Below are positions 3,247-28,920 of a DNA stretch of 28,920 bases, piece after piece; within the stretch, counting starts at the first letter, position 1, and every line of letters begins with the position of its first letter. The translations under genes and the position numbers were made by a program. Source of the DNA: a virus; IMG/VR virus record IMGVR_UViG_3300008627_000040, positions 1 to 28,920 of that record, one strand, 5' to 3'. The notes below the pieces were generated by a model. The model had not been told where the DNA came from, made no database searches, and worked only from the letters and a program-made list of their open reading frames with translations.

Positions 3247-3330
3247 TGGTGGAGAGGGCTGGAGTTGAACCAGCACAGTCTTAGACGGCGGGGTTACAGC
3301 CCGTTGAATTCACCATTATTCAGCCTCTCC
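3247..3330 (-). tRNA. tRNA-Tyr (anticodon GTA)
   Basis: Reading the minus strand from 3330: acceptor GGAGAGG pairs with CCTCTCC before an encoded ACCA at the 3' end. The D-arm is GAAT/ATTC. The anticodon loop CTGTAAC gives GTA. A long variable arm (GTC-TAA-GAC), typical of bacterial type II tRNA-Tyr, follows. The T-arm is GCTGG-TTCAACT-CCAGC. One A-C mismatch sits at the top of the anticodon stem. Confidence 0.92.
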
Positions 3331-3335
3331 ATATT

Positions 3336-3412
3336 TGGTCGGCGTGGCAAGACTCAAACTTGCGGCTTCTTGCTCCCAAAGCAAGCGTTCTATCAGGCTG
3401 AACTACACGCCG
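3336..3412 (-). tRNA. tRNA-Pro (anticodon TGG)
   Basis: Minus strand from 3412: acceptor CGGCGTG pairs with CACGCCG, followed by encoded ACCA. The anticodon stem CTTGC/GCAAG encloses the loop TTTGGGA, giving TGG. The T-arm is GCAAG-TTTGAGT-CTTGC. Only 5 nt separate it from tRNA-Tyr. Its first ten nucleotides overlap the last codons and stop of the 34-residue membrane peptide gene. Confidence 0.93.
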
Positions 3413-3507
3413 AGTAATACTTGTAAAATTGTCCCAACGATGAATAAGAGAACAAACATACCAATTCCCATCCACATCACTTTAGGCCAGTTAAAATCTT
3501 CTTTCAT
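3403..3507 (-). CDS. 34-residue single-span membrane peptide
   Basis: Begins MKEDFNWPKVMWMGIGMFVL and continues with a hydrophobic LLFIVGTILQVLL segment before a TAG stop. This gives a short polar N-terminus and one membrane span at about residues 11-32. Its ATG overlaps the stop of the SET-domain gene (TAATG), implying translational coupling; no independent ribosome binding site is evident. Its stop codon lies within the 5' acceptor strand of tRNA-Pro. No family is recognised. Single-span micropeptides of phages can be holin regulators, spanin-like or host-membrane effectors; which applies is unknown. Confidence 0.6.
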   Translation of the reverse strand: MKEDFNWPKVMWMGIGMFVLLFIVGTILQVLLGV

Positions 3508-3806
3508 TATGTTATTTCATATAAAGTGTAGATCCAAGTCAATTCTTCACCTTCTTCTATATCTCTTTTGGAAATAATCCAAACAGTATAATCATCTGTC
3601 ATCTCTAACTTATAACAAGAAGGATTAAAGGAATGATTCCCAAAAGCACCAAGTGGAGTTCTAAAATACCCATGTAATTCCTTTTCATTTGGGATAAAAA
3701 TCTTGCCAATTAAAGTTCCTGCTTTAATTTTTTTTGTCGCAAACAATCCTAAACCTTGAATTTGAGATGGACCAATCGTAACTCCATCTGGCAATGGTTT
3801 ATACAT
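3507..3806 (-). CDS. SET-domain protein, putative protein-lysine methyltransferase
   Basis: A compact 99-residue protein covering a whole minimal SET fold: QGLGLFATKKIKAGTLIG (17-34), the hallmark GNHSFNPSC (56-64), and EEGEELTWIYTLY (84-96), where GEELT and Tyr93 match the SAM-site and catalytic-tyrosine motif. SET enzymes transfer methyl groups from S-adenosylmethionine to lysine. The size recalls minimal viral SET proteins such as the Paramecium bursaria chlorella virus 1 enzyme. The Asp usual before the final motif Tyr is replaced by Ile. Substrate unknown; phage or host proteins are possible. It abuts the Sm-like gene upstream and shares TAATG with the micropeptide downstream. Confidence 0.85.
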   Translation of the reverse strand: MYKPLPDGVTIGPSQIQGLGLFATKKIKAGTLIGKIFIPNEKELHGYFRTPLGAFGNHSFNPSCYKLEMTDDYTVWIISKRDIEEGEELTWIYTLYEIT

Positions 3807-4081
3807 TATAAACTTAATCCAGTGATAGATGCAAGATAATTTTTCTCAATCTCACTTTTTGCTTCTGTTTCAACTACGATATGTGATAACGAAATTTGAA
3901 TAAAATCATCTTTTGCGGCCATCATCCAAGGAACCATCGCAAAACCCATCTGCCCTGGCGTCTGACCTGGCACCGGCGCCATTGTCATAGGTTTTTCAAG
4001 AATTATATTATCTCCTTCTTGCCCTACTCTTGCAATGACTTCTTCACCAGTTGTCAGTTTCAATACTTTTACTTCACTCAT
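3806..4081 (-). CDS. Sm/Hfq-like small beta-barrel protein, paralogue 1
   Basis: A 91-residue protein beginning MSEVKVLKLTTGEEVIARVG. The string of short strands (VLKLTTGEEVIARV, NIILEKPMTM, GFAMVPWMMAA, FIQISLSHIVVE) has the look of an Sm-like barrel: 'TGEE' turn, 'P' strand, 'PW', 'I...V'. The same pattern recurs in the gene at 10687-11022. Sm-like proteins commonly bind RNA as rings, but this assignment is from pattern only. The start at 4081 overlaps the lipase stop (ATGA). Marine T4-like phages carry similar small proteins of unknown role. Confidence 0.6.
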   Translation of the reverse strand: MSEVKVLKLTTGEEVIARVGQEGDNIILEKPMTMAPVPGQTPGQMGFAMVPWMMAAKDDFIQISLSHIVVETEAKSEIEKNYLASITGLSL

Positions 4082-4806
4082 AAGTGCCTTTTTAAAATTT
4101 TATTATATTCTTTTATAGAATGGTCCCTTGCATCAATTTTTGTCACATCACCAATCGGATGATCTTCATCCCAATCTAAAGTTTCAGCATTTATTCTCAT
4201 ACCCCAATGCACATAAGGAAAAGGTGGTAAAAAAGGCACAGGGTCATTTTCTAAATAAACTCTAAAATGTCCATCCATCCATAACTGTTCTGTCATTACG
4301 GAAGGAGAACCAAAAGTATATATTTGAACTTCGTATGCATCATCTTCTAACCACAGTCCAAGAATTTGTGCAACCGCTCCGCCAAGTGAATGACCTGTGA
4401 GAATAACAGTTTCTTCTAGTGCATGATTCTCAAGTAGGTCATTCCATATTTTCTCGGCTGCAGTTCTAAAACCTCTGTGAAGATCTGCACCAAGTTTCTT
4501 ATCTTTGAATGGTCTTGCATCAAGATCCGTTAGAACATTTCTTCCATTGTCCGTTCCACGAATGATGACGATTGTAACACCTCTGTCCTGAATGATATCA
4601 TAAGAAAATTCATTATCTGCAATCTCTTTTCCATCATCGTAAATTCTTTCACAATAATCGGCCATTTCTAACAGAACTTCTATCCCTACTGGTAGATTTT
4701 CTTTCGTTCCGTTTGCGCCACCCATACCCAAAAATTGATTTGTAGAAACACACGAATTAAGTAGTAGAAGAAGAATCGCTCCTATTATTATGAATTTCAA
4801 CTTCAT
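4078..4806 (-). CDS. Lipoprotein class 3 lipase/esterase
   Basis: From ATG at 4806 this encodes 242 residues. MKLKFIIIGAILLLLLNSC is a lipoprotein signal peptide with a lipobox-like LNSC (Cys19), predicting a lipid-anchored exported protein. The body is a class 3 lipase: RGTDNGRN oxyanion-side motif (83-90), nucleophile elbow GHSLGG (Ser140), acid Asp188 in ENDPVPFLP, and His229 in ARDHSIKEY. It would hydrolyse ester bonds of acyl lipids at a cell membrane. The start lies 50 nt inside the holin gene in another frame. GGAG and AAAG upstream favour 4806 over an in-frame ATG at 4830. A role in lysis or envelope alteration is inference. Confidence 0.85.
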   Translation of the reverse strand: MKLKFIIIGAILLLLLNSCVSTNQFLGMGGANGTKENLPVGIEVLLEMADYCERIYDDGKEIADNEFSYDIIQDRGVTIVIIRGTDNGRNVLTDLDARPFKDKKLGADLHRGFRTAAEKIWNDLLENHALEETVILTGHSLGGAVAQILGLWLEDDAYEVQIYTFGSPSVMTEQLWMDGHFRVYLENDPVPFLPPFPYVHWGMRINAETLDWDEDHPIGDVTKIDARDHSIKEYNKILKRHL

Positions 4807-5047
4807 CTTTCTTTCTCCATGCAGTTGCACCTAATATTGCACCGAATGAAAGATGAAACATGGCTCCTGCTTGTAATGTCAATGGTTCCCACCTGCTCGT
4901 CTGCATTTTTATTTCATCACTTTCCAATGCCATTCCTATATTCCACATCAGAGGCGCTATGAAAAAATCCACCAGACAGATGAATAGATACACATAGTAT
5001 GAATGTGTCCTGCAATATTTATGGAGTGTTTCGTTTATTTGTGTCAC
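4757..5047 (-). CDS. Holin-like membrane protein
   Basis: A 96-residue protein with two clear membrane spans, about residues 18-40 (YVYLFICLVDFFIAPLMWNI) and 55-77 (PLTLQAGAMFHLSFGAILGA), then TAWRKK and a hydrophilic Ser/Asp/Asn-rich tail. The RWEPLTLQAGAMFHLSFGAILG block is the recurrent core of the holin family seen in marine T4-like phages (my recollection of the family). Holins open the inner membrane to time lysis. Its ATG overlaps the upstream stop (ATGA), and its last 50 nt encode, in another frame, the signal peptide of the lipase. No endolysin gene lies in the window. Confidence 0.78.
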   Translation of the reverse strand: MTQINETLHKYCRTHSYYVYLFICLVDFFIAPLMWNIGMALESDEIKMQTSRWEPLTLQAGAMFHLSFGAILGATAWRKKDEVEIHNNRSDSSSTT

Positions 5048-6011: not shown

Positions 6012-6040
6012 ATAATATCAAACTGAACTCATGATGTCAA
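6012..6040 (-). promoter_or_regulatory. Strong sigma70-type promoter (P3)
   Basis: TTGACA (6035-6040), a 17-bp spacer and TATTAT (6012-6017) on the minus strand, preceded by an A-tract. It begins right after the stop of the gene ending at 6050 and heads the lysis/SET/tRNA module. The leader TATAAGTGTG...AATGAGAACCCCC closely resembles that after P1. Confidence 0.87.
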
Positions 6041-8888: not shown

Positions 8889-9947
8889 TCATACTGTCTC
8901 CACTGTCAATGCTTCATTATAAAGATCTTGCATTAATTTATTCAGTTCACTCTTATTGGAAATTTGTAAACTGTCTACACAATTCTCAATCACACTCATC
9001 GTATCTTCTACATCTTCCATGCTCTCTAAATCTTCACCCAAATCCTCAATGTCAAAAAGATTGTCTATGATTGAAATATTACCTACTCCAACCTTGATAA
9101 GACCATCCATCAGAGCCTCAAACATATATTGATTAGTCTTATTCTTAATGATAATTTTGACATAACAATTTTTGTACTTTGATAAGTCCTGTTCTGGTTC
9201 TTTACCATCAGTATCATCATAATAAATCTTGTGAAACATAGAAAAAGGATTTGGTATAAACTCTGTATCCAATGTTTCTGTATCAAAGATGTGAAAACCT
9301 CGTTGATCATTATAATCTGTCCATGTTATTTCGTAAGGGTTTCCAAGATAATGAATATTACCTGTGATAGAATGGTGATGAAAATGTCCACTGAATACCT
9401 TACGATAGGCCTTGAATAAAGATTGAGAAAATCCTTCTGTACATATGGAACCTTTATTGTGTTCAATTCCTTCTAGATGCAAATGTCCAAACACAACTGG
9501 ACATCTTGACTTTTCAAGTAACGACATTGATTGTTCAAGATTATCTTCACATATCCAAGGAAGAATCAGGCTTTCTATATTTCCCAACTTCACAACTGAT
9601 GGGTCTGAATAAATTGTTACATTATCCATTCCCTTTGTCAATTCTTCTATAGAATTTATTTTGAGAGAATTCTTAAAAAATGAATCGTGATTACCAACAA
9701 TAATTTTAATATTTCCACCCATTTCTTCAAGAGGGCGAAAAAACATCTCTTTCCATGAATTGAGAGTTCTATAATTGATAAATTTTCGTCTATCAAACAT
9801 ATCACCCAAATGAATTATATCAGTAATTCCTCTTTCTTTTAAAGTAGGAAAAAATACATTTTCATAAAACTTTTGAAAGAAGTTTGCGAATATAAGACTG
9901 TCATTTCTTGCACCAGCGTGTGTGTCCGTTATAAGTGCATATTTCAT
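8889..9947 (-). CDS. 47: gp47-like recombination endonuclease subunit (SbcD/Mre11 family)
   Basis: A 352-residue metallophosphoesterase nuclease. The motifs run in order: DTH (8-10), GDMFD with Asp49, GNHD (85-88), GHLH (154-157) and GHFHHH (187-192). These are the metal ligands of the Mre11 family. It pairs with gp46 as nuclease and ATPase. The start overlaps the gp55 stop (ATGA), so translation of the sigma factor and this nuclease is likely coupled. The C-terminal region is acidic (EDLGEDLESMEDVEDTM), probably a gp46-binding or regulatory tail. Confidence 0.95.
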   Translation of the reverse strand: MKYALITDTHAGARNDSLIFANFFQKFYENVFFPTLKERGITDIIHLGDMFDRRKFINYRTLNSWKEMFFRPLEEMGGNIKIIVGNHDSFFKNSLKINSIEELTKGMDNVTIYSDPSVVKLGNIESLILPWICEDNLEQSMSLLEKSRCPVVFGHLHLEGIEHNKGSICTEGFSQSLFKAYRKVFSGHFHHHSITGNIHYLGNPYEITWTDYNDQRGFHIFDTETLDTEFIPNPFSMFHKIYYDDTDGKEPEQDLSKYKNCYVKIIIKNKTNQYMFEALMDGLIKVGVGNISIIDNLFDIEDLGEDLESMEDVEDTMSVIENCVDSLQISNKSELNKLMQDLYNEALTVETV

Positions 9948-10540
9948 GCAGGAAGTTCCTCGTTGAGATAGGTTGTTAAAGGAGACAATTTTGTTATTTT
10001 TGAATCTGAAATTTCTTTGGCCCTTTTCTTTTTCCTTTTCTTCTCTTCAAAAGTAAAAATAAAATCATATATTGTAGCACGTTTATCTGTCGTGAGAGGT
10101 GAGGCTCCAGTTGAAATAAAATCTTCTGACCCCATAGAACTAGTATCAGAATTATCTTCCAACGAATCAAATTCATTCATCGTCTTGTACTTGATGTACA
10201 ACTGTTTCTTTTCTTTCTCTATTCTCCGTAAAAATGCGTAATAAATGATTTGAGTGAAGTATGCGAAAGGGTTTTGTGATTTCTCTGGATTAAAATTGTT
10301 CGCATACATGACACAATTTTCTATCCCATCACTTACCATTTCTTCACGAAATGCATAATTGATAAAATTTGGACGATGTGATAATTTCTCTGCAATTTTC
10401 AAAAAACATTCTCCTGCATAATCTGGGATTGGTGGTGGCTCAATATCATTATCTTTAGCAACTAGATATTGTTCACGATATTCACTCATAACCTCAAGGA
10501 GTTTAGAATTATCAACATAATGTTGTTTTTTTCTTGGCAC
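9944..10540 (-). CDS. 55: gp55-like late-transcription sigma factor
   Basis: A 198-residue protein from a GTG start at 10540 with AAGGAA upstream. The core DGIENCVMYANNFNPEKSQN (71-90) and PFAYFTQIIYYAFLRRIEKE (91-110) is the conserved sigma-2-like region of T4 gp55, which recognises TATAAATA late promoters with host RNA polymerase core. A basic stretch (EEKKRKKKRAKE) and the tail LTTYLNEELPA follow; the tail is in the position of the clamp-binding end of gp55. The TATAAATA sites in this window fit its presence. Confidence 0.93.
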   Translation of the reverse strand: MPRKKQHYVDNSKLLEVMSEYREQYLVAKDNDIEPPPIPDYAGECFLKIAEKLSHRPNFINYAFREEMVSDGIENCVMYANNFNPEKSQNPFAYFTQIIYYAFLRRIEKEKKQLYIKYKTMNEFDSLEDNSDTSSMGSEDFISTGASPLTTDKRATIYDFIFTFEEKKRKKKRAKEISDSKITKLSPLTTYLNEELPA

Positions 10541-10574: not shown

Positions 10575-10603
10575 ATTATACATGTTTATGAACCAAATGT
10601 CAA
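10575..10603 (-). promoter_or_regulatory. Sigma70-type promoter for the gp55 operon (P4)
   Basis: Minus strand: TTGACA (10598-10603), a 17-bp spacer and TATAAT (10575-10580), both hexamers perfect consensus. The leader to the gp55 GTG start is about 28 nt. It would be read by unmodified host polymerase, placing gp55, gp47, gp46 and deformylase in early or middle expression. Confidence 0.9.
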
Positions 10604-10617
10604 GTATGTTTTTTCTC

Positions 10618-10645
10618 TTGACATTTGTGCCACAGATGATATAAT
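10618..10645 (+). promoter_or_regulatory. Divergent sigma70-type promoter, antisense to the late block (P5)
   Basis: Plus strand: TTGACA (10618-10623), a 16-bp spacer and TATAAT (10640-10645). It points rightward into the Sm-like and uvsW genes, which are on the other strand; there is no plus-strand gene downstream for over 13 kb. A perfect dyad, AAGACT-GT-AGTCTT (10646-10659), overlaps the expected start site. Confidence 0.7.
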
Positions 10646-10686
10646 AAGACTGTAGTCTTTAAGAATAATAGTATATACAGAGAATA

Positions 10687-11022
10687 TTAGTTAATCATCA
10701 TGTTCTTGAGCATCTCTTCTGATACGAAATCCTCTTGATGTTCATTCACTTCTTTTAGAATATCATCATAAATTTCACTCATCTTCTTTGAAAGAGAGGC
10801 CATGGTGACGATGTATTTGGCGGATACAGGAATGGAATTGTCTTCTGTAAAGGGAATCCATTTGGTAAAACGAACGCCATCTTCACCTTCTTCGTCTAGG
10901 ATGTGAGATATTTTGATTGGGTGTTTGAAATGGAAAAATCCTTCTTTTGGTTTTTCTAAAATTGTAAGAAGTTCATCTCCTGTAGAAAGTTTGACATATT
11001 TAATATTTGGACCCATATTCAT
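10687..11022 (-). CDS. Sm/Hfq-like small protein, paralogue 2
   Basis: A 111-residue protein: MNMGPNIKYVKLSTGDELLT, then FFHFKHPIKISHIL, then RFTKWIPFTEDNSIPVSAKY. This repeats the 'K(L)xTGeE...P...W(I/M)...I' strand pattern of the gene at 3806-4081, suggesting the two are distant paralogues with an Sm-like barrel (inference). Unlike the other, it has a helical acidic C-terminus (about residues 75-111, KKMSEIYDDILKEVNEHQED). The start overlaps the uvsW stop (ATGA); an ATG two codons later is equally possible. It is the last gene before the promoter gap. Confidence 0.65.
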   Translation of the reverse strand: MNMGPNIKYVKLSTGDELLTILEKPKEGFFHFKHPIKISHILDEEGEDGVRFTKWIPFTEDNSIPVSAKYIVTMASLSKKMSEIYDDILKEVNEHQEDFVSEEMLKNMMIN

Positions 11023-12479
11023 CCTTTGATTGGTATGGTGTATATGTGATATGGAAATTGTTCTGAACTATAAATCTTTACTCTTTCCATAAAGTGATTG
11101 AGAGTATAGTTTTTCCTCTCTTTAAATGTTAGGTCATCTGCGATGTCGTAAAGTGAAGCTGTTGTCTTTGTATCTGATTTTCGCAGGCCTCTTCCTATTG
11201 ATTGTAAATTTCTTATACGTGATTTAGAAGGAGAAGCGAAAATGATGTTATGAAGATTCTTAATATCGATTCCTGTAGAGTATACACCATAGCTAGCACA
11301 AATGACTGCATCTTTTTCAGTTTCAATAATAGACCTGACCTGTTCTCTTGATTCTGCATCAGTACCACCATATACAAAGAATACTTTTCTTGAGTTGTCC
11401 AGTTTATCTTGCAACATATCATACAAAATGTTGCCGTGTTTTTCTACTAATTGAAATAATACGAGTGAATTACCTTTCAATCCGTCTACTAGGTTACAAA
11501 TATACTTATTTCTTTCAGGATGACTCACCAAAAAATCAATCTCTTCTTGATAGTTCAGTTTTGATACAATCATAGCCGATTCTTTGGAGTACTTCAGAAC
11601 TAGACATCGAATGTTTATTTCTGAAAGTGTCTTTTTCTTGATAAGTTCTTTTGTTGACGTAACCTTTTTTACTGGTCCGAAAAGTCCTGTGAGAATCAAC
11701 TTGTGTACCTCTATTTCGTCTAATGTTCCTGTTGTCCCAATACGATAAGGAGCATTCACTAGGTTTTTCATTATTTTTGTAAGTGACTTTGCTTTATACA
11801 AATGTGCTTCGTCACCAACTACCACCTCAAAATCATTAAAGAAAGATTTTTCAAGTTCGTATAATGATTGCCAAGTTGAGATGATTACTTCCTTGTTTGT
11901 CTCCTTCTCCTGTCCACCATAGATTTGATGAACATGATTCTTTACATTAAAATCTTTGTCTGAATAAACATCAAAATCAGAATACATTTGATACACAAGT
12001 GACAGAGTAGGTACAATTATCAACATCTTTCTTGGAAAATAATATCGCATCAAGTAATAGATGATGAGTGATTTTCCAGAAGCTGTGGGTGATAGTAAAA
12101 GACATCTTCGTTGGTCTATTGCATATCGTATTGCATTACTCTGATAGTCTCTCAATTTATATTCACAAGGAAATGATGTGAGAAACTGAAAATAATCTTC
12201 GTTTGCAATTTGTTGATATTTAGATACAGTATAGTCTTTTATTCTGTATTCTCTATCATTTGCAAATCTATAAATCTCCTGTTTTAGTCCTGTATAAATC
12301 TTTCCACTATCGTAATTAAAAAGATAAACATATCCATCCCATTTCTTCGCACGAAACATAGGCATGAATTGATAGTTATTTGGCCGAAAACGAAAATAAT
12401 GATTCAGTTCCATCTTTAGAGATGGTTCACACGAAATCTGAATATAGACATTATCAACAGGATTGATTTCTAGTTCCAT
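11019..12479 (-). CDS. uvsW: UvsW-like recombination helicase
   Basis: A 486-residue superfamily 2 helicase from ATG at 12479, three bases beyond the uvsY stop; a longer frame to 12512 would run into uvsY and lacks a ribosome binding site. Motif I PTASGKS is at 131-137, DEAH at 223-226, GTTGT at 248-252 and motif VI QSIGRGLRKS at 426-435. The N-terminal 100 residues (FRPNNYQFMPMFRAKKWDGY) match the double-wing domain of UvsW. In T4 this ATP-dependent translocase unwinds R-loops and branched DNA and switches origin to recombination-dependent replication. Length is near the T4 value. Confidence 0.93.
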   Translation of the reverse strand: MELEINPVDNVYIQISCEPSLKMELNHYFRFRPNNYQFMPMFRAKKWDGYVYLFNYDSGKIYTGLKQEIYRFANDREYRIKDYTVSKYQQIANEDYFQFLTSFPCEYKLRDYQSNAIRYAIDQRRCLLLSPTASGKSLIIYYLMRYYFPRKMLIIVPTLSLVYQMYSDFDVYSDKDFNVKNHVHQIYGGQEKETNKEVIISTWQSLYELEKSFFNDFEVVVGDEAHLYKAKSLTKIMKNLVNAPYRIGTTGTLDEIEVHKLILTGLFGPVKKVTSTKELIKKKTLSEINIRCLVLKYSKESAMIVSKLNYQEEIDFLVSHPERNKYICNLVDGLKGNSLVLFQLVEKHGNILYDMLQDKLDNSRKVFFVYGGTDAESREQVRSIIETEKDAVICASYGVYSTGIDIKNLHNIIFASPSKSRIRNLQSIGRGLRKSDTKTTASLYDIADDLTFKERKNYTLNHFMERVKIYSSEQFPYHIYTIPIKG

Positions 12480-12481
12480 TA

Positions 12482-12901
12482 TTATCCAAGTCCGGCAACA
12501 AACTTCCTCCAATTTATTGCGTTGTTGATATGGAAACTTCGGTTCTCAATGATTGATAATACCTTACTCAAATACTCTACTTTCGCTTCCTGCTCGTTAA
12601 GAATCTTTTCTGCTTTTTGTAATGGTTCATCGGCAGCAACATAATACTTTTCAAGTTCCGTCTTGGATAGTCGTATGTTGTGTTCTGGGCCTTTACCATT
12701 TTTAGAAATCACAACTTCCCATCTTTGTTGAAACAACACCTTCCAGTGTGTCTTCAAATCAGAAAGTTTGCGTTTTTCTTTACTATAAATGTTTAAATAT
12801 TTCTGATGAAGATTGGGTATCTTCAACGATTCATTATCTAAATTTGTGTCATCAATATGGGAATCATTCTCCCACATTGTCATTATTTCATCAATTGTCA
12901 T
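12482..12901 (-). CDS. uvsY: UvsY-like recombination mediator
   Basis: A 139-residue protein, nearly the T4 UvsY length, encoded directly before uvsW as in T4. The N-terminal MTIDEIMTMWENDSHIDDTN, the central basic helix segment (SKEKRKLSDLKTHWKVLFQQ) and the C-terminal SFHINNAINWRKFVAGLG fit the family layout. UvsY loads UvsX recombinase onto SSB-coated single-stranded DNA. uvsX itself is not in this window. Identification rests on size, position and weak motif similarity. Confidence 0.82.
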   Translation of the reverse strand: MTIDEIMTMWENDSHIDDTNLDNESLKIPNLHQKYLNIYSKEKRKLSDLKTHWKVLFQQRWEVVISKNGKGPEHNIRLSKTELEKYYVAADEPLQKAEKILNEQEAKVEYLSKVLSIIENRSFHINNAINWRKFVAGLG

Positions 12902-24105: not shown

Positions 24106-24561
24106 ATGAAATTTCCTCAAAAAGCTATTAATAGATTCAATGCTAAAGTCAATAAAACCGAAAATTGCCATATCTGGAATGCTGCTAGACAGAAACAAGG
24201 GTATGGTATGTTCTCTTATGATGGCAAATCGTTACCAGCACATCGTTTTGCATATCTACTTCATAATGGAAATATTGCAGAAAATATGGTCGTTCATCAA
24301 ACCTGTGAAAATAATGCGTGTGTAAATCCAGAACATCTCGTTCTTCAGACCAAAAGTCAAAACAAAAGAAACTACAATTCAGTTCGTGTCAGTAAAGAGA
24401 TGGTAGAACGAGAAAGTGTAAAATATCTTTTTCGTTTGAGGAATCTCCGGCCGGATTTGGAAAAAGAGATTGATAATCTTCTTCAGTATCTCATAACCAA
24501 TAAACAAGAGGAAGAAGATGATTTTGGATTTTCTAAAGAAACAGAAGAAAATTATATCTAG
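24106..24561 (+). CDS. HNH endonuclease, probable free-standing homing-type
   Basis: A 151-residue protein and the only plus-strand gene. CHIWNAARQKQGYGMFSYDG (21-40), LPAHRFAYLLHNG (43-55), VVHQTCENNACVNPEHL (62-78) give the HNH_3-type fold, with catalytic histidines 46 and 64 and the CxxxxC...NPEHL finger (Cys67, Cys72, His77). Such enzymes nick or cut DNA and often move as free-standing homing genes in T4-like phages. The C-terminal half (85-151) is helical and acidic, without a clear DNA-binding repeat. Its stop overlaps the terminase stop on the opposite strand. Insertion between genes 17 and 18 suggests mobility. Confidence 0.88.
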   Translation: MKFPQKAINRFNAKVNKTENCHIWNAARQKQGYGMFSYDGKSLPAHRFAYLLHNGNIAENMVVHQTCENNACVNPEHLVLQTKSQNKRNYNSVRVSKEMVERESVKYLFRLRNLRPDLEKEIDNLLQYLITNKQEEEDDFGFSKETEENYI

Positions 24562-26201: not shown

Positions 26202-28920
26202 TTAACCAAGAGCAATTGCCATTGCAGTTGAAGTTGCATCTGTATAAGCCTTGATGGATTGTTGAGTTGCAAGTTGTGTTGCAGAATCAGACGCCATATT
26301 GTCTTCATCTAACACGGCCGTTCCACTTACATCTGTATTCAATACTGGACTCGTAAGTGTTTTATTTGTTAATGTTTGAGAATCAGTAAGACCAACTACA
26401 TTACTTCCGATTCCATCTAATCTATTTAATTCCGTTGTAGTAATATCACTTGCTGAAATTACACCTGTGCCATTTGATACTAATGCACGACTTGCGGTTG
26501 TAGTTGCTAATTTTGAAAGTGCAATTGCAGCTCCAGATGCTACACTTGCATTGACAACTGCATTGGATGCTAATTCATCTGCACCAACTGCATCATCTGC
26601 AAGCATAGAATTTTCAACAGCTCCTGCTGTAATTGTAACCACTCCACCATTTGTCATAGTTACATCACCAGAAAGAGCGAATGCACCAAATCCTGTTCCG
26701 TCACCGATTACAATTTTCGTATCTGCTACTGTAAGTTCTGACAAATCACCAGAACTAGCTGCATCTCTCACCAATAATGAATTAGCCGCAACATTTTGCA
26801 TTTTTGCAAAGGTCACTGCATCGGCTGCAATTGTTTGTGCTCCATCAGCAGAAGATGTTACATCACCTGAATGATTTGGATGGGTGTATGCATTTGCACC
26901 ATCTGCAACATTGAGCATGGTTCGTAAATTTGTTGGTGTGATTTCTTCTATTACACCTGCTCCAGCACTATCTCTTCCAAGTATTCTATCAGTTGTAGAA
27001 ACATTTTGTATTTTAGCATAAGTTACTGCATCGTCTTCAATCATTGCAGTTTCTATTGCATCTGTTTGGATTGTAGAAGTACCAGTAACATTTCCAGAAC
27101 CAGTAAAGGATGCTGAAGTCCAAGAAACATCACCTGTCATTCCTATGGTTCTACCAGTTGCAAGGGCTGTTGCAGTATCAGCATTCCCAGAAGTGTCTTG
27201 AGTTCCAGAAGTATTCACTCCAGGCAAATTTATATTTGCAGAACCATCAAATGAAACACCTCCGATTGTCCTTGCAGTTTCAAGTGCAGTTGCAGTATCA
27301 GCATTTCCTGTTACATCACCTGTGACTGCACCCTCAAGATTTGCAACAATCGTTCCCTTTGTTCCAGAAACAACCTCTGAACTAATCGTTGCATCTGGAA
27401 CAAAGGTAAGTTTTCCAGCAGAATCATCGAATCCAACAAATGCAGTTTTTGCAACAGATCCATTATGATATTGCATTGCGAGTCCAACATCTTTATTTGT
27501 GTCGGCACTCAATGCACCTCCACCAGATGCAGTTTGTAATGTCATAATTGGGTCAACTACAGTTGTCGTTGTAGAATTGACTGTAGTTGTAGTTCCACTT
27601 ACAGTAAAGTCACCAGTTACAGAAAGATCTTGAGATATAGTTACATTTCCACTAGATGCAATTGCGATTGCATCCGTATCAGAAGCAGAACCAATATTTC
27701 CACCATCTGCAATAGTAAGTTGTGATGCTGATGTGACTGTTCCTGTGAAAGTTGGATTTGCAAACATTGTTGCTTTACTTTCATTCGTAACATTCTCTAG
27801 TCCAAGTGTCGTTCTTTGTGCAGCTGCATTTGCATCGTCAAGAAGTGCCTTACCAGCAACAGTTAGGTCAAATGTTGCAACTGTTCCTGAACCTGTGAAC
27901 TGAATACCTTTGTCAGCTGCAGAAGTCAACCCTGCAATTGCTGCTAAATCGGCATCATATGCCTGAACATCTGTCCCTATTACTAACCCTAAAGTTGTTC
28001 GTTGTGCAGAAGCGTTTGCATCATCTAAAAGAGCTTTTCCTGCATTGGTCAAATCATAGACCGCAGCAGTACCGCTTCCAGTAAACTGAATACCTTTGTC
28101 GGCTGCAGAAGTCAGTCCTGCTATAGCCGCAAGGTCTGCATCATATGCTTGAACATCAGAACCAATTGCAAGACCAAGTGTTGTCCTTTGTGCAGCTGCA
28201 TTTGCATCATCAAGAAGTGCCTTTCCAGCCGTAGTCAAATCATAAACCGCAGCAATTCCACTTCCAGTAAACTGAATTCCTTTATCTGCGGCCGAAGTCA
28301 ACCCTGCAATTGCAGCTAAGTCAGCGTCATATGCTTGAACATCAGAACCAATTGCAAGACCAAGATTTGTTCGTGCTCCACTAGCAGTTGACGAACCAGT
28401 TCCTCCCTCCGTTACTGGCAAATCTCCTGTGACATCGGTTGTTAAATCTATTTGTCCTCTTGTTATTGTCTGTCCACTAATGGTGATATAATCATAAGAC
28501 CCTGAAAGTGAGACATTCGTAGAATTGTCTGTTCCTGCCGCATCAACTCCCAAACTTGTTCTTGCAGTTGCACCCGATTCATTGACCCAAACAGTTCCAT
28601 TATGAACAAGAAAATGTCCGTCCGCTGGTGTAGAAAGAGATGTATCATTTAATTCTGCAAGTGTGTCTTCAGTTGCAATTTGTGCATCAACATATGCTTT
28701 AATGGACTGCTGAGTTGCAAGTTGGGTAGCACTGTCAGACGCCATATTATCTTCGTCCAATATAGCAGTACCACTTACACCAGTATTCAAAACTGGACTT
28801 GTTAAAGTTTTGTTTGTGAGTGTTTGTAAATCAGTAGTACCGATTACATCACCAGAAGGTCTTGATTTTCCATGCCACGATTGAAGTGCAGAACTAAGAG
28901 CAATATCAGTTTGGTCATTT
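26202..28920 (-). CDS. Repeat-rich tail fibre protein, 5' end missing
   Basis: The frame is open to the right edge of the window, so the gene is N-terminally incomplete: at least 905 residues, of which I read NDQTDIALSSALQSWHGKSR at the edge. An apparent TTG at 28790 is internal. Features typical of phage fibres: TNKTLTSPVLNT blocks, GNADTATALETARTIGG-like repeats, YTHPNHSGDVTS, and three tandem 62-residue repeats (27804-28361). It is Ala, Thr, Ser and Asp-rich. Its C-terminal block repeats its N-terminal one (LDEDNMASDSATQLATQQSI). No chaperone or enzymatic domain is seen at the C-terminus. A host-recognition fibre or fibre-hinge component is likely. Confidence 0.85.
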   Translation of the reverse strand, partial: NDQTDIALSSALQSWHGKSRPSGDVIGTTDLQTLTNKTLTSPVLNTGVSGTAILDEDNMASDSATQLATQQSIKAYVDAQIATEDTLAELNDTSLSTPADGHFLVHNGTVWVNESGATARTSLGVDAAGTDNSTNVSLSGSYDYITISGQTITRGQIDLTTDVTGDLPVTEGGTGSSTASGARTNLGLAIGSDVQAYDADLAAIAGLTSAADKGIQFTGSGIAAVYDLTTAGKALLDDANAAAQRTTLGLAIGSDVQAYDADLAAIAGLTSAADKGIQFTGSGTAAVYDLTNAGKALLDDANASAQRTTLGLVIGTDVQAYDADLAAIAGLTSAADKGIQFTGSGTVATFDLTVAGKALLDDANAAAQRTTLGLENVTNESKATMFANPTFTGTVTSASQLTIADGGNIGSASDTDAIAIASSGNVTISQDLSVTGDFTVSGTTTTVNSTTTTVVDPIMTLQTASGGGALSADTNKDVGLAMQYHNGSVAKTAFVGFDDSAGKLTFVPDATISSEVVSGTKGTIVANLEGAVTGDVTGNADTATALETARTIGGVSFDGSANINLPGVNTSGTQDTSGNADTATALATGRTIGMTGDVSWTSASFTGSGNVTGTSTIQTDAIETAMIEDDAVTYAKIQNVSTTDRILGRDSAGAGVIEEITPTNLRTMLNVADGANAYTHPNHSGDVTSSADGAQTIAADAVTFAKMQNVAANSLLVRDAASSGDLSELTVADTKIVIGDGTGFGAFALSGDVTMTNGGVVTITAGAVENSMLADDAVGADELASNAVVNASVASGAAIALSKLATTTASRALVSNGTGVISASDITTTELNRLDGIGSNVVGLTDSQTLTNKTLTSPVLNTDVSGTAVLDEDNMASDSATQLATQQSIKAYTDATSTAMAIALG
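26243..26370 (-). repeat. Fibre block repeated near both visible ends, left copy
   Basis: The C-terminal copy of the LTNKTLTSPVLNT...DNMASDSATQLATQQSIKAY block; see 28676-28813. Boundaries are approximate. Third-position differences show that the duplication is not recent. Confidence 0.8.
27804..28361 (-). repeat. Three tandem 186-bp coding repeats in the fibre gene
   Basis: Each unit encodes 62 residues with the pattern GLxIGxDVQAYDADLAAIAG, LTSAADKGIQFTGSG, DLTxAGKALLDDANAxAQRT. Units 1 and 2 are nearly identical; unit 3 (toward the C-terminus) differs at several positions (V for A, TVATF for IAAVY). They are tandem duplications within the coding frame. Confidence 0.92.
28676..28813 (-). 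repeat. Fibre block repeated near both visible ends, right copy
   Basis: Codes TNKTLTSPVLNTGVSGTAIL followed by DEDNMASDSATQLATQQSIK. The left copy at about 26243-26370 codes the same block with small changes (NTDVSGTAVL). They are diverged direct repeats about 2.4 kb apart. Confidence 0.8.

Follow-up and report, generated by a model that had tools for sequence, protein, structure and literature searches.

A conserved sigma70-type promoter facing the uvsW block, with a predicted start-site hairpin, in Kyanoviridae-like phages

Introduction

In bacteria, divergent or bidirectional promoters consist of two sigma70 promoters that fire apart, and the virion RNA polymerase of phage N4, a T7-like phage enzyme, uses promoters with a DNA hairpin upstream of the start. 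In the RfaH/ops system, a hairpin in the non-template strand is read via the G and T of its loop (PMC5995543). In phage T4, a late promoter drives uvsW, and the UvsW protein unwinds the R-loops formed at origins (PMC3016281). For the T4-like cyanophages, one report describes CfrI, an RNA of about 225 nt that runs antisense to both psbA and a gene for a homing endonuclease, and states that cyanomyoviruses are without motA and asiA and that their early/middle control is unclear (PMC2984593).

Here we analyse an antisense promoter at the uvsW/gp55 boundary of a T4-like marine phage and compare it with its counterparts in related phages. The element is not described in the texts covered by our literature search, which included cyanophage genome reviews; a start-site study of Syn9, reportedly the likely source of transcript data, lay outside that coverage, and the search is not proof of novelty.

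Results

The window (that is, the whole stretch of DNA analysed, a 28.9-kb virus fragment from IMG/VR record IMGVR_UViG_3300008627_000040) derives from a T4-like marine phage, with gene matches to gp55, gp47, gp46, UvsW, UvsY, gp23 and terminase, and the closest cultured relatives of this phage are the Kyanoviridae (cyanophages and pelagiphages). The minus strand holds nearly all of the genes, among them those for the late sigma factor gp55 (9944-10540, -; phrog_234), an Sm-like protein (10687-11022, -; phrog_471, with Pfam Sm_like just below the cut-off) and the UvsW helicase (11019-12512, -; gene match), the Sm-like gene following uvsW. A second Sm-like paralogue is present in the same fragment at 3806-4081 (-), the two being assigned to phrog_471/527. 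Elsewhere in the window we noted two adjacent tRNA genes (3250-3412, -), a 99-aa ORF (3507-3806, -) whose translation, judged by eye, looks like a small SET-domain protein (...IQGLGLFATKKIKAGTLIG...), an ORF that starts like a lipoprotein and has a lipase-like GHSLGG motif (4078-4830, -), an apparent HNH-endonuclease-like ORF, also judged by eye, lying between the genes for terminase and tail sheath on the strand that is otherwise empty (24106-24561, +), and a repetitive structural protein with several near-identical units of ~70 aa (26202-28919, -).

An antisense promoter and a dyad sit in the gap between gp55 and the Sm-like gene. The promoter is a 12/12 match to sigma70 on the plus strand (10618-10645), with TTGACA at 10618-10623, TATAAT at 10640-10645, a spacer of 16 bp (17 bp in most relatives) and a TG one base ahead of the -10 hexamer. 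No sense gene lies downstream of it on the plus strand, and it points at the Sm-like gene and uvsW from their 3' side. A preliminary description of this DNA had claimed both the hexamers and this orientation, and the sequence and the gene map bear it out on each point. The promoter is normally one half of a divergent pair, the other half being a gp55 promoter that the description did not mention. This second 12/12 site lies back to back with the first on the minus strand (10603-10575), with TTGACA at 10598-10603, TATAAT at 10575-10580 and a 17-bp spacer. From base composition, 0.06 perfect TTGACA-N16..18-TATAAT sites would be expected on both strands of the window, and the two that we found are adjacent. 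An 11-bp perfect inverted repeat (CAAATGTCAAG at 10594-10604 and CTTGACATTTG at 10617-10627) contains both -35 boxes, and the gap of 14 bp from -35 to -35 is one of a set of classes spaced by ~10 bp.

With TTGACA and TATAAT hexamers 16-18 bp apart, the antisense promoter has the sequence of a sigma70 (T4-early-type) promoter. It is unlike a T4 middle (MotA) promoter in having a full TTGACA -35 instead of a MotA box at -30, and unlike a T4 late (gp55) promoter in combining TATAATAAG with a consensus -35, rather than showing a TATAAATA-type -10 with no -35. Its position on the strand opposite a gene 3' end is the cis-antisense layout of the CfrI type.

We compared the regions upstream of gp55 in Kyanoviridae-like phages, 268 distinct sequences taken from IMG/VR scans and phage records, and called a promoter where the score exceeded the 95th percentile obtained with dinucleotide shuffles. 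The antisense promoter, with its -35 box, was called in 246 of the 268 and the gp55 promoter in 90%. All nine complete cultured genomes (9/9) carry the site at the locus; across these nine, comparable sites on the antisense strand number 11-41 per genome, which corresponds to ~0.01-0.03 expected per 200 bp. The hexamers and the dyad, whose conservation had been proposed as a check on the element, are kept in close and distant relatives. Most of the 22 exceptional regions have an extra gene that separates the Sm-like gene from gp55, and in ~20 of the 22 the element is found 30-195 nt past the Sm-like gene instead, usually with its TGT and hairpin and hundreds of bases (300-960 bp) off the gp55 promoter. 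In the 35 regions where the Sm-like gene is absent, the element adjoins uvsW. Since it stays at the Sm-like/uvsW end despite gene insertions, we assign the element to the late-block end.

These relocated copies bear on the simplest alternative, namely that the antisense promoter reflects incidental, functionless bidirectional firing from the AT-rich gp55 promoter region. Chance divergent sigma70 sites are possible in AT-rich DNA, and the pair does usually share a short intergenic region. However, hexamers, spacing, TGT and arms are conserved family-wide, and the element is kept away from the gp55 promoter and so is not a by-product of it; we regard this explanation as effectively refuted, with only the slightest probability left to it. 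Judged on sequence conservation, the comparison shows that the promoter, the start TGT and the complementarity around the start are under selection, and that the element is tied to the uvsW/Sm-like end and not to gp55.

Where the two promoters lie close together, their separation is phased. The -35 to -35 distances peak at about -16, -7, 6, 15, 24, 35, 45 and 56 bp, a period of 10.25 bp (jitter p = 0.003). When one random member was drawn per gp55 cluster, the mean vector length of the phasing was 0.60-0.63, whereas the 99th percentile of the null stood at 0.22 for 95% clustering, 0.27 for 90% and 0.34 for 85%; at 80% clustering (17 clusters) p was 0.017. The jitter nulls are simple ones, and the effect of common ancestry is removed only in part. 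Steps of about ten bp also occur inside several close clusters (24/34/45, 14/24 and 26/36). A single dyad operator made up of the two -35 boxes was considered and is disfavoured, the -35/-10 spacing of each promoter being fixed at 16-17 bp while the distance between the -35 boxes varies.

The predicted start of the antisense RNA is G10652, the G of a TGT at 10651-10653 (+). A TGT with its G at base 7 or 8 past the -10 is present in 241 of 246 antisense promoters as against 3 of 205 gp55 promoters; DSL-LC03 has TGC at the start site in place of TGT. A looser TGT pattern is also matched by three strong minus-strand promoters of the window, the gp55 promoter included, and TGT may therefore serve as an initiator as well as a loop. 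Separately, we observed that early-type sense promoters at 6040, 2380 and 1791 (-) share, beyond the hexamers, TTTG-N-TATTATATAAGT or TATAGTATAAGT in the region of the -10 and the start.

The dyad AAGACT-GT-AGTCTT (or AAGAC-TGTA-GTCTT) is exact at 10646-10659 (+). The preliminary description was right to call it a perfect dyad at the predicted start, but on its own it is not unusual: the window holds eight dyads that combine 6-bp arms with a 2-nt centre, so that taken alone it stands at chance level and its reality rests on comparison with relatives. There, the arm sequences diverge widely yet remain complementary, from AAGAC-TGTA-GTCTT in the window and AACGG-TGT-CCGTT in Mosig to GGACT-ATGT-AGTCC, CCGG-TATGT-CCGG and AACCCT-GTGG-AGGGTT in other relatives. 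We compared the observed pairing with a null in which 3' halves were exchanged between sequences (600 nulls, one draw per gp55 cluster). The mean hairpin score was 4.67 against a null maximum of 4.16 at 90% gp55 clustering (77 clusters) and 4.70 against 4.47 at 80% (18 clusters); at 75% (13 groups) it was 4.39 against 4.58, where an excess is not clear. Pairing classes were assigned by the pairing itself, and their 'paired' fractions are thus selected, so that the argument is carried by the number of pair types and by the swap null. Among non-Watson-Crick weighted cells on the antisense-RNA-like strand, G.T reached 93.8 versus 12.4 for A.C, and this preference, together with the covarying arms, points to single-strand pairing on that strand. 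The hairpins are short, with a mean MFE of -2.6 kcal/mol under RNA parameters, and in some lineages they are poor.

The dyad had been proposed to be either an operator or a 5' RNA hairpin, and neither proposal fits these observations. For a conventional operator, on which a dimeric repressor bound over the start would turn the antisense promoter off, the dyad is well placed, being perfect in the window and centred on the predicted start, a usual place for a repressor site. However, it is the complementarity and not the half-site that is conserved (AAGAC, AACGG, GGACT, CCGG, GCGG, AACCCT and so on), the arms changing freely in sequence, and a large excess of G.T over A.C on one strand would be unexpected for a double-stranded site. 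A fixed operator is ruled out by the lack of conservation of the arm sequences, and we consider a repressor site of any conventional kind highly improbable. As for an ordinary hairpin at the 5' end of the RNA, the start is predicted inside the TGT, so that the hairpin straddles it; an RNA start further upstream would change this inference. The persistence of complementarity on the non-template strand while the sequence changes is what an ops-like element would display, and a hairpin in RNA of that strand would account for it too. The pattern is thus that of a hairpin formed by the non-template strand or by its RNA, as opposed to a fixed operator. Two further candidates were set aside: a hairpin in sense read-through RNA is disfavoured because the wobbles are G.T on the antisense-like strand, and an intrinsic terminator, in either direction, was rejected because the hairpin comes without a T run.

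No intrinsic terminator was found along 3.5 kb of the antisense strand, so that no defined antisense RNA is delimited, and an Rfam 15 scan of the window returned two tRNAs only, with no known structured RNA above gathering score at the antisense element. The missing terminator would be in keeping with a hairpin that traps RNA polymerase during initial transcription, such that little antisense RNA is made and the enzyme itself, still bound, blocks sense read-through or modulates the gp55 promoter with which it is in phase. By its position relative to the -10, the dyad would fall inside the bubble of an initially transcribing complex, and the ~10.25-bp phasing holds in overlapping arrangements too (gaps -7 and -16). 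Such a parked polymerase is, on the other hand, hard to reconcile with an element that is kept even 300-960 bp from the gp55 promoter, and with copies in sense orientation ahead of genes, which suggest productive initiation. On balance we think it unlikely.

These sense copies are rare. IMG/VR contains at least 120 strict matches; among the matches listed, 114 are at the locus, on the strand opposite its genes, and 6 lie outside the uvsW/gp55 locus, in sense. S-PM2 has a near-duplicate of the element ahead of a hypothetical gene at 162737 (+) (L369), and P-SSM4 an extra copy, in sense orientation, ahead of a gene at 51125 (+) (L370). The existence of such copies ahead of other genes means that antisense action is not the sole context of the element. 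Several of them are followed, a few tens of bases downstream, by a CTAAATA/ATAAATA late-type motif. The extra sense copies ahead of other genes include those in L434, L452, L489, L502, L515 and L534, and in L522:236 (+) the antisense hairpin promoter occurs at the uvsW/gp55 locus in two tandem copies. One other scan match with a hairpin, at 33192 (-) in S-PM2, lies within a coding gene and was discarded as chance.

Discussion

The reading that we favour, although we put it at slightly below an even chance, is that of an early antisense promoter which opposes sense transcription at the uvsW late/early boundary and whose start-site hairpin gates escape or recruits a factor. Positioned where the uvsW/Sm-like late block has its 3' end, a host-sigma70 (early-type) promoter would fire antisense into the block, the RNA starting at the G within TGT. 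In the initially transcribing complex, the non-template strand, melted and scrunched from -6 to about +9, would form a small hairpin whose loop contains or adjoins TGT, and this hairpin might slow promoter escape or be read by a factor, for which the ops hairpin and RfaH offer a precedent (PMC5995543). The antisense polymerase or its RNA would then oppose sense transcription over the late/early boundary until late transcription takes over, and the promoter would be geared to the adjoining gp55 promoter through helical phasing. Late expression of uvsW in T4 is in keeping with this reading (PMC3016281). Weighing against it are the lack of a terminator that would define an antisense RNA, the shortness of the hairpins and their poor form in some lineages, the absence of a clear hairpin excess at 75% clustering, and the rare sense copies ahead of other genes. 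With rather less confidence, we suggest that the element may represent a new class of Kyanoviridae sigma70 promoter, one whose function depends on a non-template hairpin over the start, which is in helical phase with a divergent promoter and which serves to control the early/late boundary of a T4-like genome.

A different role, by analogy with T4 oriF/ori(uvsY), would be that of an R-loop replication origin, at which a non-coding transcript, remaining paired with the template, acts as primer for leading-strand synthesis, the displaced non-template strand forming the start-site hairpin and the neighbouring UvsW later removing the R-loop. Conservation of a promoter that has no gene ahead of it and a hairpin on the non-template strand would suit such an origin, as would the purine-rich +11..+17 segment and the AT-rich sequence beyond it. 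The locus also shares its uvsY-uvsW neighbourhood with T4 oriF, and T4 origins consist of a promoter and an A+T-rich unwinding element (PMC3016281). Against this, the cumulative GC skew of S-PM2, Syn9, P-SSM4 and P-HM2 does not turn at the locus, helical phasing with the gp55 promoter would be unexpected, and T4 oriF uses a MotA-type middle promoter and not a sigma70 -35/-10 promoter facing uvsW (PMC3016281). An origin therefore seems to us an improbable role, on a par with that of a parked polymerase.

A non-coding promoter that is kept family-wide where the recombination/late genes border on the gene for the late sigma factor is a concrete and testable candidate control point. Should the start-site hairpin act in the non-template strand, the reading of strand structure would extend from elongation, as with RfaH, to initiation.

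The element can be set beside several described systems. Unlike bacterial divergent promoters, the two promoters here are in helical phase, and the antisense one is kept even where its partner is not next to it. The N4 promoters likewise place a DNA hairpin in a phage promoter, but the present promoter is of the sigma70 type and its hairpin covers the start. T4 oriF/ori(uvsY) resembles it as a promoter for a non-coding RNA near uvsY/uvsW, the difference being that oriF has a MotA-dependent middle promoter and an unwinding element, whereas here a TTGACA/TATAAT promoter points into uvsW (PMC3016281). CfrI of cyanophage S-PM2 is similar in being a case of non-coding antisense transcription in a T4-like cyanophage (PMC2984593); in our case the transcription is predicted from sequence, and the element differs in lying at the uvsW/gp55 boundary, in being family-wide and in having a start-site hairpin. 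Finally, RfaH/ops resembles it in involving a small hairpin of the non-template strand that lies in the transcription bubble and has a G and a T in its loop as critical bases, but ops acts in a paused elongation complex and is conserved in sequence, whereas the hairpin described here lies at the start site and has freely covarying arms (PMC5995543).
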